DNA of 64,000 nt from Epinephelus fuscoguttatus (Eukaryota > Chordata > Actinopteri > Perciformes > Serranidae), in assembly GCF_011397635.1 (NCBI RefSeq), contig NC_064754.1, forward strand, positions 28,996,543-29,060,542, written 5' to 3'. Made by a program: the position numbers and the translations under genes. Shown piece after piece: positions 39,385-62,159 of the stretch; within the stretch, counting starts at the first letter, position 1; every line of letters begins with the position of its first letter. A model generated the notes under the pieces. The model was not told the origin of the DNA. It searched no databases and saw nothing but the letters and a program-made list of their open reading frames with translations.

Positions 39385-39571
39385 GGTTTATGCCCATGTT
39401 GACTCCTACCAGGGTTTGACTGTGCTGTCGTCAATCTTCCCGTCAGATCATAAGGAAGTCTGAAGCTGAGAGTATCAATTAGGTTTAAGGTGCGCTTCAG
39501 TAAGAGTCTGGTTTCTTTGATTCTTGGGACGTTCGTGAGACATTTTGGACAGTTGAGCTGACAAACTTCAG
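39385..39571 (+). promoter_or_regulatory. Unit A promoter and non-coding 5' exon (type I)
   Basis: Homologous to 53485-53679 upstream of unit C. Shared words include GGTTTGACTGTGCTGTCGTC and CATAAGGAAGTCTGAAGCTG. The block ends in a good splice donor (CTTCAG|GTAAGT, 39572). The next exon opens at 40429, nine bases before the unit A ATG, so this is most likely a 5' UTR exon with its core promoter. No TATA box is seen. Confidence 0.6.
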
Positions 39572-40380
39572 GTAAGTTTTCAATGATGTAAATATAAATT
39601 CTGCAGTAATTTTAATGGTAACTGTTGAGCAGATCCAGACATGTATCTGCCTGATATCTGGAATGGCATCAAGGCTTGAGACAGCTGTGTTCCTGTAGGA
39701 TATTGGGTTGATCTACATGCCTCTTTTTATCTCTATATTTGACATTAAGAATTCTTGACAAATGTAAAATATTTAATCTCTGTCAAATCTTCAAATTCAG
39801 CCAAATTAATTGATTTTTATTTATTTATTTTCATTGAAAAACTATATTAAGTCTTCCTTAAATATGGAGGACCACATCTGTCATAAATAGTCACTGAGCA
39901 TTCGCTTAAATGATATCTCAATGGAATGCTGGATTTCATACAATATTTTACAAATGAAAAAATAATCCCATTGATATTTTATTAACTGATATTGAAATGG
40001 CCAATAGCAAGAACGACTGTTTTTACAAACTCAATAAAAATAGGTCAAATTAGAAAAGAGACAAAAAAGGGAAATCAAGTGTAAAAAGTAACTGTGCCCG
40101 TAAATGCCTAATTGAAATGTGTATTGTTTTTGTGAAATATTTTATTAATTCCATTTTATTGTTCAAACAGATATCACTTTTTCAGATTTTTTTCTAACTA
40201 TTTACATGATACCTGTGGTCCGGCATACGTTAAGGGTTGAGAATATGCTCTTTCTAATGCTCAGTAACCCATTTAAAAACCCACTGGATTATCTGATAAA
40301 TGTGTCATCACAAAGCTGAAAACAAAGCTGTTTTACTCACATAAGGTTGACTTCTTAGAGACGTGGTTTTGCGAGACAGT

Positions 40381-40390
40381 GAAACTGAAG
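40381..40390 (+). promoter_or_regulatory. ISRE/IRF-like motif upstream of unit A coding exon
   Basis: GAAACTGAAG fits the GAAANNGAAR interferon-regulatory-factor core. It lies 38 bases before the acceptor of the PYD exon. The aligned position in unit C reads AACGCTGAAG, so the motif is not kept there. Confidence 0.35.
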
Positions 40391-40437
40391 CTCGCTCCTA
40401 ACTAATTCCCCCTCTCCTGCCTCTTCAGTGATTAAAG

Positions 40438-41785
40438 ATGCTGGTGTCACAACTGCTCTTGAAGACTCTGGAGGACCTGAGTAGACATGACTTGAAAAGA
40501 TTCAAGTGGTATCTTGCTCTCAATAACTTGAAAAACTGTAAACGAGTTCCCCTGTGCCATCTGGTGAGCCCACACTGTCGTGACACTGTGAGTAAGATGA
40601 TAGACAGCTACGGTGAAGAAAAGGCTGTGAGCTTGACCGTTGCGATCCTGAAGAAGATGGAGCACAACAGCGCTGCAGAGGAGTTAGAGAAAACATACGC
40701 AGGTACAGTTCGTCAATGAGTTTGTAGATGCTGCTAAATTGTGTCTCTTACTGACTGTCTGTGTCCTAATCTTTATTTTCTTAGAGGGAGCAGCAGATCA
40801 GGAGAAAGTCTCTCGTGCAGATGTAACCTCCTCCTCCTCGTCTGCTTTGGAACTTCCTACTGATCAGAAAATTTCTACTGATGGAGCAGCTGGTGCCATC
40901 ACTCCTAGGGCTTCAAATGCCACTAATGACAGCATGAATATCAGTGGTAATGTTTGCAGGAATGCAGGCAGTACCGTTAGCAGTAATGATAGCATGGCTG
41001 TCAGTGGTAATGTTCACAGAAATGTTGGCAGTATTGTTACCGGTAATGCTAGCATGGCTGTCAGTGGTAATGTTCACAGAAATGTTGGCAGTATTGTTTC
41101 CGGTAATGCTAGCATGGCTGTCAGTGGTAATGTTCTCAAAAATGCTGGCTGTATTGGTGGCAGGAATGTTGGCAGTATTGATAGCATGAATTTCGTTGGT
41201 CATGTGTTCGGAAATGTTGTTTACACTGTTAACGGTGATGGTAGCGTGGTTATCAGTAATAATGCTTGCGAAAATGTTGAGGATGATATTGGCCGTGTTG
41301 CTGTCATAAACGGTGATGTGATTATCAGTGGTAATATTGTCGGTGATATTGCCGGAGATGTCAGTGATATTATTGGCAGAAATGGTAAAGTGATTATTAA
41401 TGGTAATATCCGCGGAAATGTTGGCCCTATTGTTGGCTGTAAATCTGTTTTGGTTATCAGTGGTAATGTTCGCGGTAATGTTTGGGGTAATCGTAGAGTG
41501 ATTGTCTCTGGTAATGTCAGAGGTAATATTTGGGGTACTGATACCACTGATGGTAGTCTGATCATCAGTGGTAATGTTCGCGGTAATGTTGGCGGTGATG
41601 TTGAAGATGGTATTGGGAAAGTTGTTGACAGTTTACGTAGTATGATTATCAGAGATGTTGGCCATCATGTATCACTGAGCACAAACGAAGGCAAATACCT
41701 TGGATTTAAAAACCCAATAGGCAATAAAACAGATTCGTATTCATATTCATATTCATATTCTGATTCTGATTCTGATTCTGATTGA
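40438..41785 (+). CDS. PYD protein with Gly-Asn-Val repeat domain, unit A
   Basis: Two coding exons (40438-40702 and 40785-41785; phase 1 junction giving Glu) encode 421 aa. Residues 1-88 are a fish-type pyrin domain (LLKTLEDLSRHDLKRFKWYL, DTVSKMIDSYGEEKAVSLT, LEKTYAG), a six-helix death-fold domain that self-associates in inflammasome-type signalling. A Ser/Thr-rich linker (about 89-135) leads to about 11 imperfect repeats of roughly 20 aa (136-384; core VISGNVRGNVG, also MAVSGNVHRNVGSIV). The tail ends in SYSYSYSYSDSDSDSD, derived from a short simple repeat. Neighbouring exon 2 copies carry 2 to 4 repeats. A 9-base leader after an upstream acceptor (40429) gives a 5' UTR intron. Likely cytosolic. 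The repeat resembles beta-helix or solenoid proteins in pattern only. No NACHT, CARD or caspase domain is present. Confidence 0.85.
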
Positions 41786-41905
41786 TTCGGATTCTGATTT
41801 GGATTCTGGTATTTGATCAGTTAGATAAGCCCTCCAACGGCCCCAACACTTCACCATTTTTCACCCATGCTGACTATTACTGGGGGGTTGCCTGTGCTGT
41901 CCTCA

Positions 41906-43050
41906 ATTGACCTATGGCTAAGCCACGCCCCCCTCCACTCACTTGGACAAACTATCAACATTCAGTGGCCGGCGCTATGGCAGGTGTCACAGTACAGAGC
42001 ATTTCACAGGAGGCAACTGATGATTTTTGGGGACATAACGATCAGATGTCATTGAGAAGTAACCAAAAGGGCCTAAACTATGCATTGGGGGGATATATTC
42101 ATCATTTCATTGTTGAGAAGCTCAATGAAAAGCTTAAATTACAAGCCAAAATTTACAGGTCACAGTGTAAGTTACGCTTGTGAACCGCATCTCGTTGCCG
42201 TCGCCATCAAAGACAACAAGTTAAAGTGCCACTGAAGTTAAGGTTTTTGGCTCAGAATATGAGAAAAGGATAATGGCCTTTTTACCATCTTTACCAAGAG
42301 TGTCTCTCCGTTAGTTTGGTGCTACAGTATTTACACTGAATCATTCAGCATAACGTTTGCCAACCTTTGTTATCTCTGCGATTATTACAGAAAAATTAAT
42401 GAAGCTAAGCTCCAGAAGTTAACATTAGCTTAACTAGAGCCCTATGGACAACAGCTAACAATCGTGTACGATCACCAAAGTACAAAACTAGAACAAAATA
42501 GACTAATGAACTCCCAACAAACGAGGTGACATGATGAATAACACAGCTAGGAGCTAACGTTAGGCTAACTTTAGCTAACGTTAGCTAGAGATGTTAAAGA
42601 TAACTTTGTATTTCTTTCCAGCAAAGTGACAATATGTTGCCTCAAACACAATGTTGAGTTACCTTAGAACAGATGTAGACATCATTGTTAGTCTTATTCA
42701 CATTGAGTTGATGTCGTGGTCTAACGTTACCACACAACTTTATCCAAAGGAGACACTTTTCTCGGTTGAGATGTGGTTTAGGAAAGGGTAAAAAATACAC
42801 CTCGTCGCCCAGCCTCTCAGGATACCTTGTGTCGGAGTTGCATGTACCCCATGCACACCGTTTGACCATTTTTAAACTTCAAATCTCAGAAAAGCTCTCA
42901 AAATATCCTCTCTCAAAAGCTCATAAAACTGACTTTCTGTAATGCATTTCAATGGACATCCAGGCAGAGAATGTCCGAGTGTATGGGAATGGCTATATGC
43001 ACTGTGATTGGCTCATCGCGTTTGAGGGCGGGACTTAGCCATAGGTCAAT
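41906..43050. mobile_element. THAP-type DNA transposon with inverted ends
   Basis: The termini are ATTGACCTATGGCTAAGCC (41906) and GGACTTAGCCATAGGTCAAT (ending 43050). A palindromic CAATTG at both borders may be the target duplication. The interior contains a minus-strand THAP-domain exon (separate entry). A second open frame at 41914-42183 on the plus strand starts inside the terminal repeat and is not supported. The element splits a duplicated PYD promoter, so it inserted after that duplication. Confidence 0.7.
42663..42869 (-). CDS. THAP zinc-finger exon of a transposase gene (partial)
   Basis: A single exon from ATG (42869) to a good donor (CTAAG|GTAACT) encodes 69 aa with THAP-domain spacing: MVKRCAWGTCNSD supplies the first Cys pair, KCLLWIKLCG the conserved Trp region, and VYICSK precedes the splice that would bring in the final Cys/His part. 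THAP domains bind DNA and occur in P-element/THAP9-like and Kolobok-type transposases. The remaining transposase exons are not recognisable in the 1.1-kb element, so this copy is partial but its exon is clean. Confidence 0.7.
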
Positions 43051-43539
43051 TGTGGACCATAAGGAGGTTTGAAGCTGAAAGAATTGATTAGGCTTCAGGT
43101 GCTATAAAAAGTAATCCAAGGACAGGAGAAGGGTCTGTCTACAAAACTGAAAGACAGTATTCTCAGAAATTTAAACTAAATTTCTTGTATCATATATTGA
43201 TTGTTGTTTCTTTTAATTAAGTGCAGTATCATATGAATCGCGATATGAAATGGTTCACCGAAAGGTGAAGCAGCCATCATCTCTCAAAAAGTGATGAAGA
43301 CAGCAGAACACGCAAACTCATAAAAACTTTTAGCTAATTTCCCATTACCACTTATGGATGGTCAACTTCAATAACTTCATGAGTCACAAACAATGGTAGC
43401 AAGAGTGTCCCATCTATGTTCGTCACTTTTTAGTGTCCCCTGGAAACAAATTCTATTGTCACCTTTGCTACATGAAGCATTTATTAAGATGCTTTTTAAG
43501 TTTCAGTGCTTTGAGCTCTCAGGACCACCATGTATTTTT

Positions 43540-43790
43540 TTCCCCATTCAACCATTCACGCTCACATTCACACCTACGGACAATTTAGAGTTATCAATTA
43601 ACCTAATCCCCAATTTGCATGTCTTTGGACTGTGGGAGGAAGTCGGAGTGCCCGGAGAGAACCCACGCTGACACGGGGAGAACATGCAAACTCCGCACAG
43701 AAGGGCTCCCACACCCGGGATAGAACTGGGAACCCTCTTGCTGTGAGGCGACAGTGCTAACCACCACACCACTGTGCCACCCTAGCATGT
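43540..43790 (-). mobile_element. tRNA-headed SINE, copy 1
   Basis: On the minus strand it begins GGTGGCACAGTGGTGTGGTGG (box-A-like) with a box-B-like GTTCTATCCCGGG, and the body has the ACTCCGACTTCCTCCCACAG words. It is homologous to 60395-60741. Overlapping open frames are not genes. Confidence 0.75.
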
Positions 43791-44234
43791 GATATTCTCT
43801 TCTCTATTATTTTGTAAAAATAAATAAATCAATACAATTATAAGAATAAAACAATTGTACATTCCTACTTTCTGTTATTTCATAGACTTTTGTTTTTGTT
43901 ATGTTGTTTTGTTTTGTTATATATTTTAAGCTCATTCATTATAAAATTTATTGAATTATGTTTTTTAGGGGAAAAAAATTGGGGGGATACATTTACTCAA
44001 GCTCACTTAAGTAGGCTACATGCACTTTACATTTCATACAGCTTTATACTCACACTTCTACTGGGCTAGATCTAAAAGGCAAACAGACTTGTCCGACAGC
44101 TGTAGTTACTTTTCAGTTTACAGTTTTTCCATACCGTCTCAGCCAAAACCACTTAACTCCAAATCTGATGATTTTGAATTTGTTTCTGATAAAGTGGAGC
44201 ATTAGCCCTTTGGGCCCTAGGTCTTTTTGGGGTA

Positions 44235-44448
44235 TTTTTACTGCCTTTATTTATTTATTTATTTTTTTTAAGATATTTTTTTGGGCATTTTTTGCCTTTA
44301 ATGGACTGGACAGTTAAGTGTGAAAGGGGAGAGAGAGAGAGGGGATGACATGCAGCAAAGGGCCACAGGCTGGACTCGAACCCGGGCCGCTGCGGCCACA
44401 GCCTTGTACATGGGGCGCCTGCTCTACCACTAAGCCACTGACGCCCTG
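44235..44448 (-). mobile_element. tRNA-derived SINE, second family
   Basis: On the minus strand it reads GTCAGTGGCTTAGTGGTAGA (box A), then CCCGGGTTCGAGTCC (box B), then a body ending in a GCAAAAAATGCCCAAAAAA-type tail. It differs from the SINE at 43540-43790 in head and body. Confidence 0.8.
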
Positions 44449-45831
44449 ACTGCCTTTACTTTTAAGCTCATATCTCATTATAAAGGCTACATACACATGC
44501 TATATCTTGTTATTTTTTCAGGACAATGTGTGCTATCCAGATTTGCCATCATTCCATGTCCTTCTATGTGCCTGTATTTTATATTAATTTTTATATCAAT
44601 GAAAAAAACAAATTTGTGAGCCTAAATTCTTACATATTTTACATGTATCTCACCATAGCAAGTTGGAAGTAGACATATTCTGCCATATATGAAGAGGGGA
44701 GACTCTCTGGAATCTGGCAATATAAGAACCATGATGGTGGGACATTCTGTCACTTCCAAAACATGTGGTTTGTGCCAAGCGGACATAATTGCCAGTATTT
44801 TTTCATTATTGCAAGAAACTCCATTGACTCATTCACAAGTCAAAATGTGTTTTATCTGAAAGAAACATGCAATATTTACATCTAAGAGAATAGAAAAATA
44901 GTCAACCAAGTGCAGTGATGTCCTCCAAGATAATATTTATTTTTCAGTTTCAGTTATATATTGGGGGAACATTTTGGGCATTGGTGGGGGGGCACGTGTC
45001 CCCCTCAATGTATATGGTGACTACGGCCCTGTCAGCATGCATAATTAGGTAGTCTGAGTGGGCGGAAGTTCGCTGCATAGATCAGCCTCTCATTGGGTGG
45101 AACGAGCCACCCGCTGAAGTCCTGCCCTACCACCACCAGTTGCAGTTTTCAACACGTCCTTTACTAACTTTTGTGGTGTTTGATCTTGCGGGGATGTAGC
45201 CATTTTTCTGCCATGGTTCGTGTCCTGTAGGCGATATTTTTGTGGGCGTGTTACACCAAAACCTGTTTCCCCCAGCAATATTTTTGCAAGCACACCGTTG
45301 CTGTGGCACCGCCCAGAACGATTGTGATTGGTTGAAAGAAATACAAGCAGCCTGGGCGTTTTTTTTTCTCCAATCTTAAAGTGAGAGCCGGCCCAGCCAG
45401 ACTTAAGGTCTGGTAAGCAAGACTAATAATTAGGCTGCAGTTGTCTGGGTGCGCAAAGGTGAAGTGTGCTTGTCTTGTCATACAAAGTTTGATGGAGTGT
45501 CAACTGGACTATATAGAGATATTTGCATCTTGAAAGACTACAAATGTGGATAGACAGGGAGAAACACATGCAAGCCTAAGATGTGGTAAGATACGATATT
45601 CCTCACTATATGAAGTGACTGATAACAAGATCTGTATAATGGATTGTAAAGAAATTCGTCAGGTTTTTATTTTGTAGACAATTGATCTGGATTTATAGCA
45701 TGATGGGATGACAGCACAATGATGTGTGTGGTATCCCTGGAAAACTCTGGTCCTGCTTCTTCTACTTCTTAAGCTAAATAAAGTCTTTATGGCTCTCATA
45801 GGACAGCCACACATACTTAACAGTATATTAA
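44449..45831. other. No gene seen
   Basis: AT-rich intergenic DNA between PYD units A and B. The short minus-strand frames near 45100-45480 lack recognisable domains. Confidence 0.4.
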
Positions 45832-46870
45832 AGGGATAGTGCACCCAAAAATGAAAATTCAGCCATTACTCACCCTCATGCTGAGGAAGGCTCTGGTGAA
45901 GTTTTAGAGTCCTCACATCCCTTGCGTAGATCGGCGGGGGGAGCAGCTAGCACACCTAATGGCTGACGGCCCCCCAGACTAACGTCCAAGAACACAAAAT
46001 TGAAACCACAAAATATCTCCAACATGCTCATCCGTAGTGATCCAAGTGTGCTGCAGCCCCGACATAAAAAGTTGTTTCGAAAAACATCATATGAACTCTA
46101 TTTTTAGCCTCATTGTAGCCTGTAGCTCTGACTGCTTCTCTGTGCACTGCACTCATGTGTGCGCACTCAGGGTGATCAGTGATGCACGGTCTCTGAAGAG
46201 CAGCAGTCTCGTCAGTACTGATGTCCAGATTCTCAAGTGCAGGCATCGCCAATTCCCAGTCTGAGCAGCAAAGACTTTCCTCATCCATTGGCATTGCTTT
46301 GCATTTGAAACAACTACACCACCAGGTTTCCAGTGCTCGACTCTGGTATTCTGCGGCTGGCTGAGGGTTAGGCCAAAAATACATAATTGAAACCACAAAA
46401 TATCTCCATACTGCTCGTCCGTAGTGATTGTAGCTTGTAGCTCTAATTGCCTCTCTGTGCACCACGCGCACGACCAGTGAAAGCACGTGAACACACATGA
46501 AGGCAGTGCCCATGTCTCACGGTCTCGTGCAAGCACATACACGTCAGCGCAGTGCACAGAGAGGCAGTCAGAGCTACAGGCTACAATGAGTTCAAATGAT
46601 GTTTCTCCAAACAACTTTTTATGTTGGGGCTTCAGGACACTTGGATCACCACAGATGAGCAGTATGGAGATATTTTGTGGTTTCAATTATGTGTTTTTGG
46701 ACGTTTGAATCTGGGGCGCCCAGCCTGCATTAGGTGGAGTTGTGCTGCTACTCACTCTCCCCTTGGGTCTCCGCAAGGGATGTGAGGACTCTAAAACTTC
46801 ACCAGAGCCTCCCTCGACATGAGGGTGAGTAGATAATGGCTGAATTTTCATTTTTGGGTGCACTATCCCT
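45832..46870. mobile_element. TTAA-flanked element with very long inverted arms
   Basis: The ends read AGGGATAGTGCACCCAAAAAT and its reverse complement, each bordered by TTAA, as for piggyBac-type insertion. The inverted arms run about 340 bases (45832-46180 against 46530-46870), including matching AAACTTCACCAGAGCC and GCCTGTAGCTCTGACTGC blocks. A further nested copy of part of the arm lies at about 46375-46480. No transposase. The overlapping 161- and 177-codon minus-strand open frames are by-products. Confidence 0.75.
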
Positions 46871-46879
46871 TTAAGTACA

Positions 46880-47064
46880 GAATCTCCTCCTCCACTGTTT
46901 ATGGGTGCCCTTAAAGAGAATCAGGCTGATGTTATTGTCAGTCTCCACGACTACATCATTAGTCATCTCTGCAGCGGCACACTAAAAATTTTGCCAACTT
47001 CCTGAAAGTCAAATAATAGGCACCTCTACTTGTACATTGTCTCTCTGTGGTATCTGTAGTTACG
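46880..47064 (+). promoter_or_regulatory. Unit B promoter and 5' exon (type II)
   Basis: Homologous to 50470-50644 (unit E) and, more distantly, to 61440-61622 (unit F). It ends in a donor (TACG|GTAAGT, 47065). The interferon-response-like position reads GAAAGTCAAA (from 47004), one mismatch from GAAANNGAAA. Confidence 0.5.
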
Positions 47065-48516
47065 GTAAGTCATTTTGGTTTTTTTGCTGCTTAATCAAAG
47101 GATCATTCTGGCTCTTTGGCCCCGATGTTCAGCCTGTTGGTTGTTTCACATTTTGTCAGATGAAATGATGAAAGCTACAGCAGAAGATAGGAAAACCTGA
47201 AGGTTGCTGTTGCCGTGTTGTAACGGATGTAACACTGACTGTGTTGTGTTTACTGTAGGTCTGTCTTTCTTTCAGCACTGATATTAATGGAGGTTGTTAA
47301 TTTATGTTACACATGAAGGCACGGCAGATAACAGTAGTGTTGTCACTTCAAGTAGCGACGTTAAGAATTAAACTGTATTTCTAGGTAGCGTGGTGGTGAC
47401 GTCATTATTGTCTGAGTCAAATAGCATGCATAGCATTGTAATTGACCAAGTGGTGCAGTGGCGTCCATACAAGTTACAAGCTCCTTTTCCCAAGAAAAAC
47501 TCTGGAGTGCAGCAAACTTTTTTCCAGCGGAGGTCTGGATGAAATTAAGGACAATAGAAGTGGGGATGAGTCATGCAACTGATGCCAGTGCCACATCGGG
47601 GCATTTTATTTTTTTTTTAAACTGTATTCAACAATAAAATGTACAAAAGCATCATAAAACGAACAACAGGCTACATGAGAGCTGAAACAAATTGCAATGA
47701 AAGATGAACAAATAATAAAGTAAGAAGATGACAAACAACAACAAAACAGTTAATTTCACATCATCAAATATTTTTTTGTGATATTGTAAAAATGTGTTAC
47801 ATTTCTGTTGTTCATAAGACCAAGGCAGTTCAACACTGAGTTAAATTAAATTAAAAAAAAGATGGAAAGAGGGTTGTGAACCTAAGAACTTCTGTTTATG
47901 AATAAAGAATTTCCCTGATAAAATAAAGAAGTTAACGTAAGTCAGAAACTTGTTTGTCATATCTCATAGCTCATATCATCATAGTAACAGATTATATCAT
48001 TTAGAGTAAAACAGCGAGTGATAATCGTAGTATTGAAAGCATGAAAACTTAAATCAGACCAAAATTTCATTGTTATTCTACACTGAAAAAAATAAATAAA
48101 TCAATGTTTCATCGGCATGTCCACAAAAGGACACGAGTCAGCGCTGATTATAACAAATCTATATTGATTGATTACCCATTTTCATCAGTTTACATTCATA
48201 ATAATAAAATAAGCGATATCAACAAGCTGACACTGTATGCCACAGTGAGTGTGGTGGAAAAATATATTTAAGCTTCTGTATTATACAACCTATAATATAT
48301 TTTTATTATATTTTATGCCTACATTGGCCCTTCCTATACATCAAGTAGATACCTACAGCAATAAATGACAATGGTAATGTTAGTTATTTTAAGAGCTCCT
48401 ATAGATGGTCTTTTTTAATAAGATAATTATTTGTTATTCCCATTGTGCAATTATTCCTTTAACACTGAAGGCTAATCTGGAAACTAATTCCTCCTCTTCT
48501 CGTTCAGTGAGCAGAC
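47065..48516 (+). other. Unit B 5' intron
   Basis: The stretch 47065-48010 is closely repeated at 50645-51628 (unit E). The match stops abruptly at the TTTAGAG near 48005, where unit E jumps into exon 2. No coding sequence. Confidence 0.5.
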
Positions 48517-48934
48517 ATGCTGGTTCCACAGCTGCTCCTTCAGACTCTGGAAGAGCTGCGCCAAGATGACTTTAAAAAGCTTAAATGGTTTCTCTCAATG
48601 GACATCTTGGACAGCTGCAAACCAATTCCTGTTTCCCGTCTGAAGAAGGCATCCCGGTGCGACACTGTGAGCAGGAGAGCTACGGTGAACATTTGGCTGT
48701 GAGCCTCACTGTTGAGATTCTGAAGAAGATGAGCAACAACAACGCTGCAGAGAGGTTACAGAAAACCTACACAGGTAGCTAATTTGTGTCTTTTATTGAT
48801 TATCTGTTTCTTGGTCTTTATTTCCCAGAGGGAGCAGCAGCACAGGAGAAAGTCTCTTATTCTCTTGTAACCTCCTCGTCTGCTTTGGGTCTACCAACTG
48901 CTCAGAGAATCTCTACTGATGGAGCAGCTGGTGC
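48517..48934 (+). pseudogene. PYD gene unit B (frameshifted, exon 2 interrupted)
   Basis: The PYD exon (48517-48774) begins MLVPQLLLQTLEELRQDDFK and is clearly homologous to units A, C and D. Relative to unit D, seven bases (ATGACAG) are missing after 'GTGAGCAGG' near 48676, throwing the rest of the domain (LAVSLTVEILKKMSNNNAAERLQKTY) out of frame. The donor ACAG|GTAGCT and acceptor TTTCCCAG are kept. Exon 2 (from 48829) reads EGAAAQEKVSYS to STDGAAGAM and is then cut by a LINE, so no repeat domain follows. Confidence 0.8.
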
Positions 48935-49515
48935 CATGCTATTTCTAAAACGAGATGTCCTACATCTAATACTCTGGAGTCTCCTGCCAGAAGGCAGAAG
49001 CTTAAAAAACAGAGGAAGCAGGGTGTGAGGGATCTCCCATCACCTTCTCCCCCTTTTGCTTAATGCGTGTGGCATATAAGGAGGCCACAGAAGGAAGGTC
49101 ACAGCCTACAATCTTTGATGCCGTGCATACCACTCTTTCTAGCTGTGTCTCGTTGTGCTCAGTTGTGTTTCCACACCACATCGTCACTGAAAATGTGAGA
49201 ACACACTCAACTGTCGCTCTATAGAAGCTGAGTTTCCCATCCCCGGAGACCCCAGTCGTCCTTAACTGACGCAGTGAGTGAAGCCTCTGGTGGGCCCGAC
49301 TAATAATGTTAACTGGTGTTAACTTCCCACTTTAAGTTGTCACATAGGGTTGTTCCTAGGAATTTAAAATTACTTTCTTGCTCCACCTTTTGACCATAGA
49401 TAAGCAGGGGAGGGTGAACTGCATCGCCACGCCGAAAGTCTATGATCGTTTCCTTTGTTTTGGTGATGAAAGACAGTTTACTAATTAATATCAACATATT
49501 TTCTGAGAGTGCATC
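48935..49515 (-). mobile_element. LINE reverse-transcriptase C-terminal fragment inside unit B exon 2
   Basis: On the minus strand, broken frames show RT C-terminal words typical of Rex1/L2-like fish LINEs: KTKETIIDFRRGDAVHPPLL, SNFKFLGTTLCDNLKW, RVVCTASKIVGCDLPSVASL and LLPSGRR. Stops and frameshifts are present. The insertion point follows GGTGCCAT of exon 2. Confidence 0.75.
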
Positions 49516-49531
49516 TTATTTTTTACCTCAG

Positions 49532-50340: not shown

Positions 50341-50469
50341 ACTGAATAATCAGTACTTTCACTTTTGATAATACTGATATACTTTTACCTACATAAAAAT
50401 TATATGCATGGCTTTTACTTGTAGTGGAGTATTTTTGTAGTGTGAGTACTTTCTCTGAAGTACATGATC
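50341..50469 (+). other. Junction between transposon copy and unit E promoter
   Basis: AT-rich, no feature. The homology with the unit B upstream region begins near 50470. Confidence 0.4.
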
Positions 50470-50644
50470 TGAATACTTCCTCCACTGTTCGTGGGTACCC
50501 TTGAAGAGAATCAGACTCATGTCACTGTCAGTATTTCCTCACAATCTTAGTCACCTCTGCAGCTGCACTCTTAGTTTTTGCCAACTTCCTGAAAGTCAAA
50601 TAATAGGTGTCCCTTTATGTACATTGGTGGTATCTGTGGACACA
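50470..50644 (+). promoter_or_regulatory. Unit E promoter and 5' exon (type II)
   Basis: A close copy of 46880-47064. The donor CACA|GTAAGT is kept (50645). The interferon-response-like position is the same degenerate GAAAGTCAAA as in unit B. Confidence 0.5.
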
Positions 50645-51347
50645 GTAAGTCATTTTGGTTTTTGTTGCTTATCAAAGGATAATTTTGGCTCTTTGGCCCC
50701 GAGGTTGTTCAGCTGTTTCACATTTTGTCAAATGCAATGATGAAAGCTACAGCAGAAGCTAGGAAAACCTGAGGGCGGCTGTTGCAGCGTTGTAACAGAT
50801 GTAACACTGACTGTGTTGTTTCCTGTAGGTCTGTCTTTCTTTCAGCATTGATATTAATGTGGGTTGTTAAATAATTGCAGTGCCAAAGAGTTATGATGCT
50901 GACACTGCAGAGCGTTACACATGAAGGCACGGCAGATAACAGCAGTGAAGTGAAGCATCACTTCAAGTAGCGACATTTAGAATTTAAGTGTATTCTCAGT
51001 AGCAGGGTGGTGACGTCATTACTTTCTTAGTCAAATAGCTTTTTAATAGGGAAATTAATTCATTGACCATACAAGTTACAAGCTCCTTTTCCTAGGAAAA
51101 ACTCTGAGGGGCAGCAAACTTTTTTTCCAGCAGAGGTCTAGATGAAATTAAGGACGATAGCACTGAGGATGAGTCATGTGATTGATGCCAGCGCCACATT
51201 GGGGCATGTATTTTTTTTAAAACTGTATTCAACTAAACAATGTACTAAAACACGTCATGTATAGAACGAACAATACATGAGAGCTGAAACAAATTGCAAT
51301 GAAAGATGAACAAATAATAGATAAAGTAAGAATGATAAGATGATAAA

Positions 51348-51380
<33 letters not shown>

Positions 51381-51628
51381 AACAGTTAATTTCACATCAT
51401 CAAATAATTTTTTGTGATATTGTAAAAATGTGTTACTTTTTCTGCTGTTCATAAGACCAAGGCAGTTCAACACTGAGTTAAATTCAATCCAAAAAGATGG
51501 AAAGAGGGTTGTGAACCTAAGAACTTCTGTTTATGAATAAAGAATTTCCCTGATAAAATAAAGAAGTTAACAACAAAGGTCAGAAACGTGTTGCTCATAT
51601 CATCATAGTAACAGATTATATTATTTAG

Positions 51629-52065
51629 AGAAAGTCTCTCATTCTCTTGTAACCTCCTCGTCTGCTTTGGGTCTACCAACTGCTCAGAGAATTTCTACTG
51701 ATGGAGCAGCTGGTGCCATTGCTCCGAAGGCTCCAAATGCCCCAAATTCCTGTTACGGTGGTGTGATTGTCAGTCGTAATGTTGGAGGTAATGTTAGGGG
51801 TAATGTTGGCAGGATTGCTAGCCGTAATGTTTGGAGTGATGTTGCCCAGAATGTTGGAAGTAATGTTAGGGGTGATGTTGACATAAATGTTGGGGGTACT
51901 GTTCAGGCTAATGTTGGATCAGTTAGAGCAAGTCCTTCAACATCCCCAACAGTTAACTGTCCCCCCTACAAAATCATACGCAGAAGAACATGGAAGAATC
52001 GGTCTTTCAGGTCAAAAAGAAGGCATCTGAAAGCATTAAGTGTTGTTTCAGGAGAAATTAAGTGA
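51629..52065 (+). pseudogene. PYD gene unit E: repeat exon without PYD exon
   Basis: Sequence homologous to exon 2 of B starts abruptly at GAGAAAGTCTCT, directly joined to intron sequence that in unit B precedes the PYD exon by 500 bases. The PYD exon and the exon 2 acceptor are thus deleted (about 840 bases relative to B). The open frame continues STDGAAGAIAPKAP, then GGVIVSRNVGGNVRGNVGR and more XXNV tetrapeptide-like repeats, then a basic tail (RRRTWKNRSFRSKRRH) to TGA. Without PYD or splice acceptor it is probably a relic, although the frame is still open. Confidence 0.7.
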
Positions 52066-52893: not shown

Positions 52894-53484
52894 TTACTTG
52901 AGTTTTTCTGTTTTCTGCTACTTTATACTTTTCATTTCATTACAACTGTCTGATAACTTTGGTTACTTTGCAGATTCAGATTAATAATACAAAATATAAT
53001 CATCAAATACACTGTGATGTGTTGTCATGGATAAAGACAAAGGTAATTGATTTCTTGGTGAAATTTACAAGCTAGTTTGTAAAGTAAAAGAATATATCTC
53101 TATATTTTACTGCAGCATTTCATGTACAATGTGTCACTAATTGTAATTCAGTCATATAATATTCATTATTTTGAAATGGGCAGTTTGGTTTCTTTTTGTG
53201 TTTTAAGTAAATTGTATATGTAATACTTTTTTTACTTTGACTTAAGTAAAATTTTGAATCCAAGACTGTTGCTACTTTTACTGCAGTGAAAAATCTGTGT
53301 ACTTCTTCCTCCACCAGATCAGTTGGGCACAAACTTTGCATGTTGCATCGTAACATGTCTGCTGGATGTGTATACAAGCTGTGTGTACAGTATATATCAG
53401 TGAGGACATGTGGACCTTCAAAAAAGAGCAATAAATTCTCTGTCTCACCTTCATTCAGCCTGGTAAAGTTTAACCTTAAACTGT
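52894..53484 (+). other. No gene seen
   Basis: AT-rich. The open frames on both strands near 53120-53486 are not supported. The portion from about 53440 is homologous to 39330 onward, the beginning of the type I duplicon. Confidence 0.4.
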
Positions 53485-53679
53485 AATCAGTTTACGCCCA
53501 CTTTGACTGGTACTAGGGTTTGACTGTGCTGTCGTCAGTCTTCCCGTCAGACCATAAGGAAGTCTGAAGCTGAAGGTATCGATAAGGCTTCAGGTACGCT
53601 TCAGTTTCAGTCTGGTTTCTTTAATTGTTGGGGCTTTGGGACATCTTGGCTATTTTAGCTGACAAAACACTGACTTCAG
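53485..53679 (+). promoter_or_regulatory. Unit C promoter and non-coding 5' exon (type I)
   Basis: A close copy of the unit A block. It ends in donor CTTCAG|GTAGGT (53680). The next exon opens at 55252 after TACCTGTTCAG, nine bases before the ATG, as in unit A. Confidence 0.6.
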
Positions 53680-54394
53680 GTAGGTGCTTGATGGCGTATA
53701 CGTAATTTGTTGTGCAATGATTTTAATGGTAACTGTTGAGCAGATACAGAGGTGTCCTTGCCTGATATCTGGAATGGTTGAAAGGCTTGAAAGAGCCGTG
53801 CTCCTGTAGCATATTGGGTCCATCTGCATGCCTCTATTTATCTGTATAGTTGTAGATTTAAAAGAGTCTTTTCGGGTTATAACTTCGACAAATGTAAGAC
53901 TTTTTTTTACCGATGTCCTGTGAAAACCATCTTTTTGTGAGTTTTTTTTTAGACTAAAGTATAAATTGTTTCTGTTGTATGGAGGACCACATGTGTCACG
54001 TCAACAGCTATCACACATTTAACTGATTGATATTTAACTGATCAGTACACACCAGATTTAATACAACATTTTACAAATGAATAAATTAATCTATCAACAA
54101 AGTTTATTGGTTTTTATTTTATAATATCATTAGTTGTTGTTTATATGTTGTATTTGTTGCATTTTAAGGGTCTCTCTTGTAGAGGAGATTTTCAGTCTCA
54201 ATGTGTGTAAATATAACAACAGTAAATGAGAGACTGCAAACAGAGCAGAATGGATACATGTATCGATAAAGTATTGGCTTTTTACTGGTAAATGATTTAC
54301 AGTAACAACAAGTGTAGTTGTCATCAGTAATCTTCGAGTTATCTTCACTTTGTCTACACCGTGGCCTCTCTACTGTTGTCTGACTTTACTGTGT

Positions 54395-54450
<56 letters not shown>

Positions 54451-55251
54451 ACACGTTTGGAGGAGGTCAGCCATGCAGATAGCAGGAGAGAGAGACTGCA
54501 GCAGGATGATAAATCAAACCAAAACTTTTCAAAAGTACCAATGAAGGAACCGATAATGTCGGAGCTTGTTACTGCTGGGGTGGAGGTGGAGCTGAAAGAG
54601 CAGCAGCGGCATTGCCAGGGCAAAGGGGGAGCTGGGAAAATTTTGCAGCTGAAATAGAAAGGCAAATTGTGAGGGTGTGTTTTGTAAATGATATACTTAG
54701 AGTGACGTGTGACGTGTGTCAAGGCTGTAGCCATGGAGTCAACATTGGGGGGGACCAAATCTGCACGCCCGCACGTTTTCATCTTTTTAACCTGTTTTCG
54801 CTGCTGAGTCAGTTTTCCAATATGTTGACAGTCCTTCTTCAGTGACTACAGTTACAGTGACAGTGGGCTCCATGCTAGCTCTACAGCTTGACTGAGTAGC
54901 ACCAACTAAGGAGCAGGGCTCAGCAAAGAGTCTGTTATCCCTCTAGTTGTCACATTGTGGCATAAATTGTTAACTACCTGTGAAAAATTTTATTAATTCT
55001 ATATAACTATCCAATTAGATACCATTTGACAGAATTCTTTATAATGCTTTACATGATACTTGTGGTCCTCCAAATTTAAAGGTTGAGAATATCATAATGC
55101 TAAAAGGTATTTAAAATCCACTGGATTATCTGATAAAATATCACAAAGCTGAAAATTGAGCTGTTTTTAACAATTTATCAAAAGCTGGTTTTGCAAGACA
55201 GTAACGCTGAAGTAATTACTAACTCTAATTCCCCCTCTCCTACCTGTTCAG
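53680..55251 (+). other. Unit C 5' intron with GT microsatellite
   Basis: About 1.57 kb, partly homologous to the unit A 5' intron. It contains a GT microsatellite at 54397-54444; the poly-Val-Cys and poly-Thr-His open frames there are by-products. Confidence 0.5.
54397..54444. repeat. (GT)n microsatellite
   Basis: About 24 uninterrupted GT units in the unit C 5' intron. Unit A lacks it at the aligned place. Confidence 0.95.
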
Positions 55252-55260
55252 TGATTAGAG

Positions 55261-55922
55261 ATGCTGGTGCCACAGCTGCTCTTGGAGACTCTGGAGGACC
55301 TGAGTAAAGATGATTTCGATAAATTTAAGTGGTATCTTGGTCTCAACATCTTGAAAAACTGTGAACAAATTCCTCTGTATCAACTGGGGAGCCCATTCCG
55401 GCACAACATTGTGAGTAAGATGATCGAGAGCAACGGTGAAGAAAAGGCTGTGAACTCGACTGTTGAGATCCTGAAGATGATGAAGCACAACTACGCTGCA
55501 GAGAGGTTAAAGAAAACATACACAGGTACAGTGAATCAGTGAGTTTGTAGACGCTGGTTAACATTTGCTAAATTGTGTCTCTTACTGATTCTCTATGTCC
55601 TGGTCTTTATTTTACAGAGGGAGCAGCAGCTCAGGAGAAAGTCTCCCTTGCAGTTGGAACCTCCTCCTCATCTGCTTTGTGTCTGCCAACTGGAAGGAGA
55701 TCCTTTATTGATGGAGCAGCTGGTGCCATTGCTCCTATTCCCTCTAATGGTACCATGATTATCAGTGGTAATGTTAGGGGAAATATTGGCTATCATAGTG
55801 GTAATATGATCATCAGTGGTAATGTTCGCGGTAATATTGGCTGTAATGCTGGCAGTATTGTTGGCAATAATAATGTATTTGTTACATCCCCAGCAGTTTA
55901 CCATCACCACTATTACAATTAA
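55261..55922 (+). CDS. PYD protein with short Gly-Asn-Val repeat, unit C
   Basis: Two coding exons (55261-55525 and 55618-55922, phase 1 junction) encode 189 aa. The PYD (MLVPQLLLETLEDLSKDDFD, FKWYLGLNILKNCEQIP, AAERLKKTYTG) is full length with no stops. Exon 2 keeps the linker (EGAAAQEKVS, STDGAAGA-like FIDGAAGAIAP) but has only two core repeats (MIISGNVRGNIG twice) before an unusual HHHYYN end. AATAAA at 56029-56034 follows. Reading frame, donor, acceptor and 5' intron structure match unit A, so this is a likely functional short paralogue. Length difference in the repeat is the main divergence. Confidence 0.82.
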
Positions 55923-56364
55923 AATTAAGCAGATGTTAGGAGGGGAGTCAGTCTTACTGAAAAACTTACTGAAAGACGGTGTTCTCGGAAAATACATTAA
56001 GTTTTTTTGTCATGTGTTTAGTGTAGTTAATAAATAAAAATCAAGTGTAATATCATGACTCGTGATATGAAATTATTCACTTGAAGGTATCATTAAAGCA
56101 GCCGTCATCTCGCAAAACATGCCTACACACAGAAGCTCATGAAAATGTACTTCTTAGCCCATTTTCCAATACTACTTATGGATAGCTGACTTCAATAAAC
56201 TCATGCAAACCAAACCCTTGTATCAGGAGAACTGGATACAGATCTTGGGGCGGCCCTTCATTCATTTCTCTGAAAGTTGCCCAGTGGCACATAAAGCCAA
56301 AAAAGTTTGACTTCCTGGGATTACAATTACCAGGATCTTCTGCATTGTTTGAGCGAGGGAGCAG
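55923..56364 (+). other. 3' UTR and flank of unit C
   Basis: The 3' UTR shares CTGAAAGACGGTGTTCTCGG and the ATGACTCGTGATATGAAATT block with the 3' region of A. Poly(A) signal at 56029. From about 56280 sequence of the following inverted-repeat element begins. Confidence 0.5.
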
Positions 56365-57545: not shown

Positions 57546-57754
57546 AGTCTCTTGTTCACCTTGGGCCCAACAGTGAGGAAGCAGCAGCATCCAGGTCATT
57601 TTATCCACAGCAGTTGAGCATTTTCTGCTTCAAGCACCACTGAGCAACTTTTATAGGAATGAACAGGATCCAGCCTCTTACACTGTATCCAGTTCTGTTA
57701 ATACATCTACGGTGATTTTTTTTTGTTATTTAATGTAAAGCACTTTGTACATTT

Positions 57755-57995
57755 GTTTTTGATATAGAATAGAAAGCCTTTATTGTCATTTTACAAATAG
57801 TATACAAGGAGATTAAGAGGGCTACATCTGATCAGGTGCCAACTAGTCATTACAACACGCAAGTAAAGAAGCAGACAACATTATTATTTATAAAATCAGA
57901 AATAAATTGTGTAAAAATAGGCTGTATCAAAGTGTTGCAAGTGTAAAATAAATAGTGTATTGCACTTAATAGAGTATAACACTAATAAGCAGTGG
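57755..57995 (-). mobile_element. LINE-type 3' terminus fragment
   Basis: The words AATAGAAAGCCTTTATTGTC and ATTTTACAAATAGTATACAA are typical of the antisense 3' end of a common fish non-LTR element. No coding portion remains. Confidence 0.4.
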
Positions 57996-58150
57996 ATTGC
58001 ACATATAGAGCAAGATCATTTATGTTTTGATCTATCAGCCTGATGACACATGACGTGTGTTTAAAGCTGTAAATAAAGTTAATTGTCATTACTGTTGTCA
58101 TAAAGTGGCTACTGTCTCCTGTTCACCTATATTGCAAACATTTGATCTCA

Positions 58151-58655
58151 GAAACAAGGACAAGAATAAAGCTGCATAACTTTTGTTCATGTGAACTGTT
58201 ACCTGAGCAAAATTCAGTCACTGAGGATGACAGTGAGAAAGCTCTTGGCAAGAAAATGTTTTGTTGGTTCTCTTTCTAGCCATACAGATATTTTTTGTAT
58301 TATTTGCCGCTTTTATTTTGAGTTATCTGAATTATTGAAATTTAATTCTTCAATACAAGGAGCACCGGAAACTAAATAACTTATTTTTAAAAATTCTTCT
58401 GCGTCCTACTTGTGTATTTTGTTGTTGTTTATTTCTATGATTTCCTTTCATTTTCTGTTTGATATGCATTTAACAGAATTATTTGAAATTAAATAAATAA
58501 AGTTGATGAAACTGTGAGATATGAGGATTGTTGTCTTTTCTTCATCCTAAAATCAAAATTATGCTCTAATGGTGACTTTTTCTGGCATTACTGTTACACA
58601 TTTATTTCTGATATCATTTGACTTTCCCAATAATAAATGCCTCCAGTCATCTAGT
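58151..58655 (+). pseudogene. Relict 3' part of a PYD unit
   Basis: After CTCAG at 58150 the sequence AAACAAGGACAAGAA matches the possible third exon at 49532 but is then out of frame. From 58495 to 58655 the flank (GTTGATGAAACTGTGAGATA, then CTGGCATTACTGTTACACAT) is repeated nearly exactly downstream of unit D at 61170-61335. An extra PYD unit therefore once lay between C and D; its PYD and repeat exons are gone. Confidence 0.55.
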
Positions 58656-58990
58656 CTCGCTACCAGACAATCAGCTCATTCTGTCAGGTAGGAAATATCT
58701 GTCAGAATGGACTATTACCTCTGAGGTAATAGTCCATTCTGACAAAATGAGCTACTCTACTTATAACCACATTTATAGAGGCAGTAGTCCATTCTGATAG
58801 ATATTTCCTACCTGACAGAATGAGCTACTCTACTTATAATTACATTTATATAGGCTGCATGTCTGCTTCTTACACATATCTGACCTGAGTAGCTACTAAA
58901 CAATGTTTTTGCCAGGTTAGGGTATTATGAGTGAGAGGCTTCATCAGACTAGTCTGACAGGATGAGCTAGCTCATCCTGAGCGGGTAGCG
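58656..58990. mobile_element. Complex palindromic element
   Basis: TTCTGTCAGGTAGGAAATATC and its inverse, and GAATGGACTATTACCTC meeting GAGGTAATAGTCCATTC directly, form a long hairpin. A partial third copy follows, and a second small palindrome (CAGGATGAGCTAGCTCATCCTG) sits near 58957. Non-coding. Probably a MITE with rearranged arms. Confidence 0.6.
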
Positions 58991-60086
58991 CGAACTTTCA
59001 GAACACCGGCAACAAAGCAACGCCTCTTGCATTTTTTTAAAGGACACGCCCTCCCGGAAATGTGCGCTCCCCCTTCTCTCATCCACAAGGACACAAACAC
59101 ACAGAGAGATTGAAAATGTATGCCGAGAGATTTAACTCCGTTTTATCAAACGTGTGCTCAGTCCACAAGATTGTGGAAATGAAGGACTTACAGCGACTTT
59201 GTTTAAAACTTTTAACACAGTCGGACTATGTTTACGAGCACAAGAGTTCAGCGAGCCACCGAAGGACTGCCCTGTGGATTAACTATTGGTTCTGCAACGT
59301 AGGGAGTTTTTTTAAACTCTGAAATTGTATCCGCCCATCTAAACACAAAATCAGGGAGAAAGACATCAGTCTTTAGTTAAGCAAAGCGTCTAAAGACTGA
59401 CTTGTGAGTCTACCAGTCAAGTTAAATGTTGCTGTTGTCCCTGGTTTTATATGAGAAGAGGGAAAGATCGCTAGTTGCTAGGCTAATTTATACAATGTAA
59501 AATGCCAAAGCCTTGCGCTAATAACATTTGCATGTTGTATTTGTGGGGAAAATGTGTCTGTGTTTGTCTGTGAATGCTGCGAGTTATAGTGAAGCTGATT
59601 TATGTACTTGTTTTTCAAATTGTCTCTATTAAGACATGTTTAATGTGTGTTTAATGTGTGTTTTGAATCAAATAAACTTTACAACACTTCACATAAACAT
59701 CTGCTGCCGACTAGTGTTTTGGAGGTGTAACTGCAGAGTGATACAGACACATCGCATAAGTAAAAATGCTCACAACACCATATGCAACGTGCGTAGGCTA
59801 CGTGCGTAGGCTCTATGCACAACCATAAATCCCCTTTTACTGTCACTGTTCTAGCTCCATACTCTTATACTGTTTTCCCTCTGGAAAAAGCCAGCTGACT
59901 GCAGAGCACCAGGACCAGAGTCAGCACATAACCCCTGTAAAACTAGGGCAGATAAAAGAGTAGCCGATTTATTCTGTCATCTAACTTTTGGCGCAAAGCA
60001 TATGGCCTATAAGTATTGTTGAATGCTTCCTTTAAATTGAAGTCTAATTAGGAAACTTATTCCTCCTCTTCCACCAGTGAGCAGAC
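58991..60086 (+). other. Upstream region of unit D
   Basis: A plus-strand open frame of 86 codons at 59062-59322 has no domain that I recognise; its start lies in GC-richer sequence than its surroundings, so it could be part of the neighbouring mobile DNA. Neither promoter type is recognisable before unit D. The last 60 bases match unit B (CCTCCTCTTC-CAG acceptor, then TGAGCAGAC before the ATG). Confidence 0.4.
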
Positions 60087-60401
60087 ATGTCTGTTCCACA
60101 GCTGCTCCTTGAGACTCTGGAAGAGCTGGGCGACGATGACTTCGAAAAATTTAAGTGGTACCTCTCCATGGACATCTTGGAGGGCTGCAAACCGATTCCT
60201 AAGTCCCGTCTGGGTAAGGCACCCCGAACAGACACTGTGAGCAGGATGACAGAGAACTACAGCAAAGAGTCGGCTGTGAAGGTCACTGTTGAGATCCTGA
60301 GGAAGATGAGAAACAACAACGCTGCTGAGAAATTAAAGAACAGATATGCAGGTGCAGTGGATGATAAGCTTCATGAACACACTTCCTCCTCATCCTCTTG
60401 A
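60087..60401 (+). CDS. PYD protein, unit D (possibly PYD-only)
   Basis: The PYD exon encodes MSVPQLLLETLEELGDDDFE, then FKWYLSMDILEGCKPIPKSR, then AAEKLKNRYAGA, with all the hydrophobic core positions of units A and C. The family donor is present as GCAG|GTGCAG (exon end 60352). If unspliced, the frame reads on through VDDKLHEHTSSSSS to a TGA at 60399-60401, giving 104 aa; the Ser run and stop come from the end of a SINE inserted just beyond the donor. If spliced to the remnant exon at 60823 in the usual phase, a stop follows after about four codons. Either way the product is essentially a lone pyrin domain. In mammals, PYD-only proteins damp inflammasome assembly; that role here is inference. 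Confidence 0.75.
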   Translation: MSVPQLLLETLEELGDDDFEKFKWYLSMDILEGCKPIPKSRLGKAPRTDTVSRMTENYSKESAVKVTVEILRKMRNNNAAEKLKNRYAGAVDDKLHEHTSSSSS

Positions 60402-60741
60402 GGGTCGCGGGGGGGCTGGAGTCTATCCCAGCTGACATTAGGCGAGAGGCAGGGTACACCCTGGACAGGTCGCCAGACTATCGCAGGGCTGACACATAGA
60501 GACAGACAACCATTCACACTCACATTCACACCTACGGACAATTTAGAGTTACCAATTAACCTAGTCCCCAATCTGCATGTCTTTGGACTGTGGGAGGAAG
60601 CCGGAGTGCCCGGAGAGAACCCACGCTGACATGGGGAGAACATGCAAACTCTGCACAGAAGGGCTCCCACGCCCGGGATCGAACAGGCAACCCTCTTGCT
60701 GTGAGGCGACAGTGCTAACCACCACACCACCGTGCCGCCCC
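60385..60741 (-). mobile_element. tRNA-headed SINE, copy 2 (in unit D)
   Basis: A full-length-looking copy on the minus strand: GGGCGGCACGGTGGTGTGG head, GCCTGTTCGATCCCGGGC box B region, and a long body ending near GACCCTCAAGAGGATGAGG. It is the same family as 43540-43790. A T-run (60757-60783) adjoins the head side. Confidence 0.8.
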
Positions 60742-60822
60742 TTAAACAAACTTAACCTTTTTTTTTTTTTTTTTTTTTTTTTTACATGTGTATGATTCTC
60801 TGCATCTGTATCTTTTTATCTG

Positions 60823-60975
60823 AAGGGGAAAATAGCTAAACCCTCTACCTCCTCCTCTGCTCTAGCACCTCCTGCAGCTCCCACCACAATGTCAGCTCAG
60901 CATGGAGGTGTGATAATCGCTCCGACAGTCTCCGGTAGCACCGCTGGGACATGGATTATAACCGTCAATAAATAA
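60823..60975 (+). pseudogene. Unit D exon 2 remnant
   Basis: An open stretch reads KGKIAKPSTSSSALAPPAAP, then MSAQHGGVIIAPTVSGSTAG and WIITVNK to a TAA. It corresponds to the TSSSAL linker and the GGVIVS start of the repeat domain in other units. The only AG at its beginning (60824-60825) leads into the wrong phase for the unit D donor. AATAAA at 60967-60972 overlaps the stop and could serve as poly(A) signal. Confidence 0.5.
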
Positions 60976-61169
60976 ACCAATGAAAAACAACCAGACTGGG
61001 ATCAGGGAACACACACTATCTTGAAATAAGTGAGGGAGCACCAAGTCTCTCACTAACTTTTTGCTGAGCCCCTTTTTGTTCGGAAATGTGGATAGACTCT
61101 CACACACAATTTTCTTTGTTTTCTTCATAGCTAGATCATGACATTTGTTATGAATTATTTGTTTGGACA

Positions 61170-61335
61170 TTAACGTTGATGAAACTGTGAGATATGAGTA
61201 TTGTTGTCTTTTCTTCATCCAAAAATCAAAATAGTGCTCTAATGGTGACTTTTTCTGGCATTACTGTTACACATTTATTTCTGATATCATTTGACTTTTC
61301 CAGTGAAATGAGCAATAATAAATGCCTCCAGTCAA
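61170..61335 (+). repeat. Duplicated 3' flank of PYD units
   Basis: About 160 bases nearly identical to 58495-58655, marking the end of unit D and of the lost unit before it. Open frames over it are not genes. Confidence 0.65.
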
Positions 61336-61439
61336 TATGTGTTGTGGGTTTGATGACCATGCACAAAAATCTACACTTTAGAGAGGACGCTGTAAATGTT
61401 TGTCTATTTATTAATCTAGTGAGAAATACTTTGTGGCTA

Positions 61440-61622
61440 TTTCTAGGTGACTTTCCAGAGAATCAAACTGATGTTGCGGTCACACTCTTCCACCACATCC
61501 TCAGTCATCGTTCCTGCTGCGCTGGCATCTTCTTGCGCAACCCTGAAACCGAAACTAGAATGTTAGCGCCATTTTCTTTACATTGTTTCTCGGGTGTACA
61601 TCTGTAGGCTGTCGGTGACACG
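61440..61622 (+). promoter_or_regulatory. Unit F promoter and 5' exon (type II) with ISRE-like motif
   Basis: Homologous to the unit B and E promoter blocks, and ends in donor CACG|GTAAGT (61623). It contains GAAACCGAAACT (61545-61556), a perfect match to the GAAANNGAAAC interferon-stimulated response element on this strand. The downstream part to about 61830 also aligns with B and E (GCTACAGCAGAAG / GTTACAGCAGAAG; TTGTAACNNATGT). No PYD exon of unit F is found before the window ends. Confidence 0.5.
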
Positions 61623-62159
61623 GTAAGTTGGGTTAAAGTGCTCATTTAAAGTTACTTTTGGCTCTCTGGTTCCGCTGTGCAGCCAGCTGCTGAGCTGGTT
61701 ACACACACTCAAATGAAGTTACAGCAGAAGTTTGTGAAACATGACGGCGCCTGTTTCCTCTTGTTGTAACCATGTTGACTGTGTCGTTACCTGCAGGTTT
61801 GTCCTTTCAGCAGTGAAGTTAATGGTTGTTGCTCATTATTGCACCGCCGAATTAGTTGTCGTCCGTTTGTCCACAGATGTTAATGACGCTGTAGATGTTT
61901 AGAGAACAAGCCGAGGTTAAAGTCATCACCAGTCACTCAGATCCAGATGTGGCTCCATTACTGTTTTTAAATTATTTCCGCTTCAGCACTTTCTCTTTAG
62001 GAACGCGTTATAAAGGGTTAGTTAACTGTAATTAATGGCTCCGTTAACGTTTATGACTTGTGTTGACTAATTCTTTAGGCTATAGATTAGTCACTGTTTG
62101 CTTTACTTAGAGTAAGTTGTGGGTTGCCAGGTTGCAGAAAATCCCCCTTTTATGCCTGC

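Follow-up and report, generated by a model that had tools for sequence, protein, structure and literature searches.

What could a run of fish genes be doing that join a pyrin domain (PYD) to an exon of Gly-Asn-Val (GNV) repeats, or to a short tail of another kind, and in whose scanned + frames no parts of a larger receptor appear? The question is raised by 64,000 nucleotides of Epinephelus fuscoguttatus (the window, C3:28996543-29060542; coordinates below are window positions unless prefixed C3, and the features of the array in the window lie on the + strand), which we compared with the 1.05-Gb assembly of 26 contigs. We regard these genes as a PYD family whose tail is unusual. The reading that we prefer, tentatively and at less than even chances, is that of a tandemly duplicated family of fish PYD genes, part of which would carry a self-associating β-tail and would serve as an inflammasome scaffold or regulator. 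The observations of the initial annotation of this DNA were largely right, and its interpretation partly right.

A local array of pyrin-domain genes

A genome search with the PYD extends the array to about eight PYD exons across 38 kb. Within 15 kb past the end of the window it continues with the four units E (C3:29063683), F (C3:29068514), G (C3:29072127) and H (C3:29074699). The initial count of five units, a relic and an extra promoter was wrong. What had been taken for the extra promoter (61716-61851) is a + strand copy of the 5' flank of units B and B' (71-73% identity to 47172-47302 and 50744-50887), and the unit downstream of it is E, beyond the end of the window. The PYD exon has 265 nt and a GT donor in seven units (A, C and D-H), and six (A, C, D, E, F and H) have open frames and GT-AG borders. 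The tail is clear in A, C and H and ambiguous in D, E and F; G has an altered tail, B is a broken unit and B' lacks the PYD.

The proposed two-exon design, a phase-1 PYRIN exon followed by a GNV exon, is confirmed for A and C, as are their matching splice sites and 5' untranslated region (UTR) introns, whose borders, read from the sequence, are standard. Gene A has a 5'-UTR exon at 39385-39571 (its start as given initially) with the donor GTAAGT at 39572, and the last base of the intron is 40428. The exon at 40429-40702 contains the ATG (40438) and the PYRIN domain, 265 coding nt ending in phase 1; exon 2, the GNV tetrapeptide-repeat exon (40785-41785), adds a stop-terminated frame of 332 codons, for a protein of 421 amino acids. 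In gene C, the upstream region and the end of the 5'-UTR exon lie at 53393-53679, the intron extends from the donor at 53680 to 55251, and the next exon (55252-55525, coding from the ATG at 55261) carries the PYRIN domain. A short GNV exon with two full repeats (55618-55922) completes a protein of 189 amino acids, and an AATAAA stands at 56029, 107 nt past the stop. The sequences upstream of A (39282-39741) and C (53393-53852) are 76% identical. The GNV exon is not common to all units, as had been claimed: it is found only in A, B' and C, while B has the head of such an exon and D, earlier read as a GNV unit, has a second exon without the repeat.

The identity of the pyrin domains is firm. The Pfam PYRIN profile, which the initial annotation had named as a check, matches A (5.3e-16), C (6.4e-15), D (1.1e-22), F and H above its curated gathering score, with E-values from 6.4e-15 to 1.1e-22, and E and G are above that score in read-through frames. 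Among PDB chains, those of pyrin (5.9e-6), ASC and NLRP3 align with the PYD of A. A search for a viral relative of the D PYD gave 10 stretches in viral_contigs and none was confirmed.

What accompanies these domains was examined with Pfam in the three + frames of window positions 39300-64000 and of sequence records L009 and L010, which contain the tails of E and F and of H, respectively, with stops read through and E up to 0.01. PYRIN is the only domain found in these frames, apart from an FHA match that stays below cut-off at the far end of L010 and that we attribute to a neighbouring CEP170-like gene. The claimed absence of NACHT, CARD and caspase domains thus holds in the scanned frames, which also have no match to FISNA, LRR or B30.2 across the array; neither a CARD, a peptidase C14 domain after the PYD nor a HIN-200 domain was found in these frames or in spliced A and C. 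The - strand, scanned at 59100-64000, gave no Pfam match. With ASC (PYCARD) the array proteins share a small adaptor-like layout, an N-terminal PYD and sequence similarity of that PYD, but no CARD was detected in them, and their PYD is followed instead by GNV repeats or a short motif.

The PYDs elsewhere in the genome have different company. Outside the cluster there are 27 PYD matches; 20 of them were taken as 10-kb loci, and one long downstream open reading frame (ORF) was scanned from each of ten. Six of these ORFs contain FISNA-NACHT (L017, L018, L020, L021, L023, L030), FISNA being a domain named as fish-specific; three contain SPRY or TRIM parts (L016, L026, L028) and one a transposase (L015). 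The array resembles such fish NLR-B30.2 and NLR-C genes in that the PYD there also sits in a short ORF of its own, separate from the large downstream ORFs, and differs from them in the lack of FISNA-NACHT, LRR and B30.2 from its + frames. At two loci (L014 and L019, C20:27.69-27.71 Mb) what we take to be RING-finger-like ORFs follow the PYD ORFs by a few hundred bases, which suggests PYD plus TRIM-type genes; the PYDs of these loci are the best non-cluster matches of H. At another (L033, C10) the PYD adjoins an ORF that presumably encodes two SAM domains, possibly a SAMD9-like gene.

In a tree that combines 20 PYDs from other loci with the seven cluster units other than B, the group formed by A and C-G (support 89/73) excludes those 20, and H weakly joins a long-branch PYD (69/46). 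The cluster requires two changes on this tree and holds together in 24% of the 200 bootstrap trees, a result compatible with a single origin but also with more than one. Upstream of the genes, C, B, E and H show isolated single matches to interferon, NF-kB or GAS sites, and A, D and F show none.

The repeat tail and the short motif

The repeat core of A spans 245 residues in a single four-residue register. Its autocorrelation exceeds z=3 at lags 4-28, 36, 40 and 44, all multiples of four (lag 32 does not reach it), with a peak at lag 20 (z=12.6), and all 16 GN[VIA] sites are in one phase. Of the 61 tetrapeptides, 30 have Asn at position 2 and 48 have V, I or A at position 3; in B' the third position is V or A in 13/13 tetrapeptides over 52 residues. 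Such a register would suit a β-solenoid or β-helix. When used as a genome query (E up to 0.001), exon 2 of A finds four places, every one inside the array. The exon-2 frame stays open in none of 1000 dinucleotide shuffles for A, in 3/1000 for C and in 0/1000 for B', a lenient control because shuffling breaks the repeat.

Profile searches weakly point in the same direction, gene by gene. The only clear match of A is to PHROG 430 (baseplate hub/lysozyme; 2.7e-5, and 0.038 for B'), a family of the gp5 type matched in its β-helix region, according to our own reading of its description and of the position of the match. The core of A alone reaches 1.5e-5; reversal and two composition shuffles each abolish the match, and shuffling the order of the tetrapeptides weakens it to 0.09. 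The other, weak matches are mostly to β-solenoids: Bactofilin (0.021), MinC (0.03) and FwdC (0.021) for the C exon, all below cut-off, the gp5 trimerisation domain (1.8) for A, and only YgjJ (0.23) for B'. The C exon does not belong to Bactofilin PF04519, where it scores 15.5 bits against a cut-off of 27.9. These families are bacterial or phage ones, and the weak to moderate likeness to Bactofilin, MinC and T4 gp5 lies in the repeat pattern rather than in demonstrated homology. For the PHROG match we favour a shared pattern too, because tblastn with exon 2 of A confirmed no encoded relative (0 of 87 pattern stretches in genome_contigs and 0 of 10 in viral_contigs) and none was found in phages.

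The initial statement that the architecture matches no named family stands for Pfam, NCBIfam, PHROGs, PDB sequences and the open-access literature, where no description of a PYD with a GNV or short-motif tail was found among the matches listed. It is quite possible that the family has already been annotated under another name.

The tails of the later units are shorter. Gene D has a phase-1 PYRIN exon of 265 nt at 60087-60351 and, if the acceptor before 60836 (AAATAG|CT) is used, a second exon at 60836-60975 that adds 45 residues, made up of a Ser/Ala/Pro linker and a single C-terminal motif, GGVIIAPTVSGSTAGTWIITVNK, for a protein of 134 amino acids. The same motif ends E and F (155 and 147 amino acids with the corresponding acceptor) and, more diverged, H as GKSVIVAPSISGTSSGVSFNMNI; H has a clear acceptor, 153 amino acids and a poly(A) signal 38 nt after the stop. 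G, also with a clear acceptor, encodes 131 amino acids, and its second exon ends without the motif. The second exons of D, E and F have 140, 203 and 179 nt, so that the differences are multiples of three and the frame is kept.

Among 34 sequence records, a regular expression for the motif matches the copies in D, E and F alone and misses H, and a looser one, run with L001-L007 set aside, matches D, E, F and H. A tight DNA pattern returns D, E and H (F falls outside it) and one site on C19 that reads through a stop codon. A link of the motif to NLR genes was set aside, as these patterns gave array copies and the C19 site with its stop. Protein queries with the second exons give only cluster genes below E=1, though they are short and insensitive: H finds itself and then a candidate at E 2.99 (3 scored), and E finds itself, F and D, with others at 2.65 and 7.06 (10 scored).

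Broken units and neighbouring sequence

Unit B has a 5' flank (46888-48009) that is copied ahead of B' at 50478-51633 with 78% identity. Its PYD exon (48517-48774) is frameshifted near 48676 and appears in the genome search as two matches, 48517-48678 and 48675-48770; a truncated exon-2 head follows at 48829-48938, of which 48846-48937 shares 98% identity with 51628-51719. In B', the second copy, the 5' flank is fused directly to exon 2 and the PYD exon is missing; its GNV exon, open over 146 codons, is at 51625-52065.

Upstream of the array lies a large minisatellite (36615-38725) of 27/54/81-bp units with about 77 copies of the 27-mer and several open frames. Between A and B there is an ORF on the - strand (42642-42878) that we take to be of the THAP-type zinc finger kind. 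A dispersed repeat occurs at 43549-43782 and again, 94% identical, at 60507-60740 within the intron of gene D, and an inverted repeat pair (45828-46160 and 46539-46874, 81% identical) is probably the remnant of a mobile element. Further away are ORFs that we presume to be ubinuclein-like (UBN1-like; 20122-25904), presumably Ig-domain-like ORFs on the - strand (29910-34040), possibly of an ICAM-type gene, and an apparent Tc1/mariner transposase-like fragment (16236-16538).

Function of the tail and competing explanations

PYDs join helical filaments, and the PYD of the array proteins would be expected to do likewise. The tail tethered to it in A, C and H, and in D, E and F if spliced in, takes the form of one motif of about 23 residues (D, E, F, H) or of the GNV repeat (A, C). 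If such a tail self-associates, it would gather several PYDs, and PYDs so clustered could lower the threshold for filament nucleation or, by mis-spacing, raise it. The protein would then nucleate, extend or regulate PYD filaments, whether on ASC or on inflammatory caspases that bear a PYD. The scaffold role proposed initially for the second domain is a part of this reading: the register of A and the profile matches hint at it, and the off-register repeats of C speak against it.

Several observations weigh against our reading. In D, E and F an AG ten nucleotides upstream of the tail acceptor has the better pyrimidine tract. In D it is at 60824-60825, with the exon starting at 60826 and a frame that stops after 92 amino acids, leaving a PYD only; E and F have the same choice, with 92 amino acids again. 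Because of this competing AG, the acceptor is clear among the tailed genes only in A, C and H. The nearest poly(A) signal in D, E and F overlaps the stop codon, and neither AATAAA nor ATTAAA is found within 1 kb after the stop of A. The two repeats of C are spaced by 17 residues, off the four-residue register. Our confidence is reduced on account of the ambiguous acceptors and this broken register. Even in A a 12-nt minisatellite would hold a four-residue register equally well, and the GNV codons are mostly GGT AAT GTT, with rather uniform third positions as in a young tandem repeat; for these two reasons the register alone does not prove selection at the protein level.

The profile evidence has its own difficulties. 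A scrambled control of the A core reached 0.075 for an unrelated family, and the matches, which vary by gene, may reflect the Gly/Val composition of the repeat. There is no NCBIfam match for A, no PHROG match for C and no Pfam match for B', the repeat exon finds nothing in PDB beyond a galectin at 0.33, and the A core finds nothing in phage genomes at E 0.01.

Nor does sequence establish that the two kinds of tail are related. A common origin of GNV repeat and single motif is plausible by position, as both follow a Ser-rich linker of similar kind in the same exon place. There is also a likeness of GGVIIAPTVSGSTAG in D to GGVIVSRNVGGNVRG (B') and GSLIISGNVRGNVGG (A), but sequence gives no proof of common descent. 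With a profile of the four motifs, the motif having been chosen after inspection, the best site is matched by 38/5000 shuffles for A, 11/5000 for B' and 1259/5000 for C. The hhalign comparison of the two exon types is null, and C compared by BLASTP with D and H gives E 0.22 and 0.30.

The competing explanation that survives best, and that we still consider somewhat unlikely, is that these proteins are decoys or regulators of the pyrin-only kind, in which the PYD alone would cap or compete on the PYDs of ASC, NLRs or caspases; the tails may then be untranslated in D, E and F and a tolerated appendage in A, C and H. The array proteins are indeed short, with a PYD and no NACHT or caspase domain, and D, E and F spliced through the upstream, better-looking acceptor would fit pyrin-only proteins exactly. 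If their tail is inert or unused, these three are candidate fish pyrin-only genes. There is a precedent in POP2, a PYD-only inhibitor in the excerpts of PMC5465353. Also, the tails range from 45 to 332 residues while the length of the PYD exon is fixed. Against such a view, A, C and H differ from pyrin-only proteins in having a tail exon behind a clear acceptor, long open repeat frames are retained in A and B', and D, E, F and H retain a recognisable C-terminal motif. Tail use in D, E and F is favoured by an open frame in all three, by length differences in multiples of three and by the conserved motif.

It is also conceivable, though in our opinion rather unlikely, that the array is an offshoot, now in decay, of the PYD exons of fish NLR genes, duplicated locally without NACHT exons, its 12-bp repeat being open by chance and the whole of little or no function. 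The frequent FISNA-NACHT downstream of other PYDs, the broken B and B', the motif-less G, the dominance of the GGT AAT GTT codons and the missing poly(A) signal of A would all agree with decay. So would the ratio of nonsynonymous to synonymous change (dN/dS; Nei-Gojobori over 88 codons, noisy at such length) in recent pairs, which is 1.03-1.46 for A/C, D/F, E/F and F/G and also weighs against a functional tail-bearing family. Yet it is 0.40-0.63 in 14/14 comparisons across the three lineages A/C, D-G and H, and D/E, D/G and E/G give 0.46, 0.47 and 0.72; the pattern fits old constraint followed by recent relaxation or diversification. Further points against decay are the open frames of A, C, D, E, F and H with their GT-AG borders, the 332-codon exon of A that none of the 1000 shuffles kept open, and the separation of A and C-G from the 20 other PYDs in the tree. 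Very improbable, finally, is that exon 2 is an alternative terminal exon and that splicing also connects the PYD exons with remote exons of a larger receptor gene: other PYD loci do keep the PYD in a short ORF away from large ORFs, but the scanned + frames of the array hold no NACHT, LRR or B30.2, and exon 2 is stop-terminated, with a poly(A) signal close behind in H and C.

The preferred reading, a PYD family in part with a self-associating β-tail, has a bolder form, to which we give a low probability: the PYD would be fused to a signalling β-solenoid or amyloid, with a homotypic motif of about 23 residues amplified locally, in one fish lineage, to a solenoid of about 60 tetrapeptides. The likeness to HET-s-type and RHIM motifs is one of workings only, namely that of short β-forming repeats, about 20 residues long, within proteins of innate immunity or cell death. 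The tails themselves have no Pfam match to such a motif. Pfam includes a HET-s model, and no family of that type was matched; the RHIM core tetrad is [IV]Q[IVLC]G, and the 245-residue core of A (the one scored) has no Gln and hence no tetrad. In the excerpts of PMC7889193 and PMC4344463, HET-s/NWD2 motifs can substitute for PYDs in NLRP3-ASC signalling; β-solenoid motifs and PYDs would be functionally compatible on that account, because the fungal motifs can replace PYDs between NLRP3 and ASC. If true, the array would be a natural counterpart of this laboratory swap and a candidate second kind of animal signalling amyloid beside RHIM.

For teleost immunity the preferred reading would have a direct consequence. 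Some teleost inflammatory caspases have a PYD in place of the CARD, according to excerpts of PMC12436146 and PMC9978379 (other fish caspases bear a CARD, according to an excerpt of PMC6988351), and because of this a protein that gathers PYDs into clusters could act directly on PYD-bearing caspases. A PYD with a self-associating β-tail would amount to a minimal, sensor-less nucleator or damper, and even if the tail is inert or unused, the locus is still a clear local duplication of PYDs without NLR parts.

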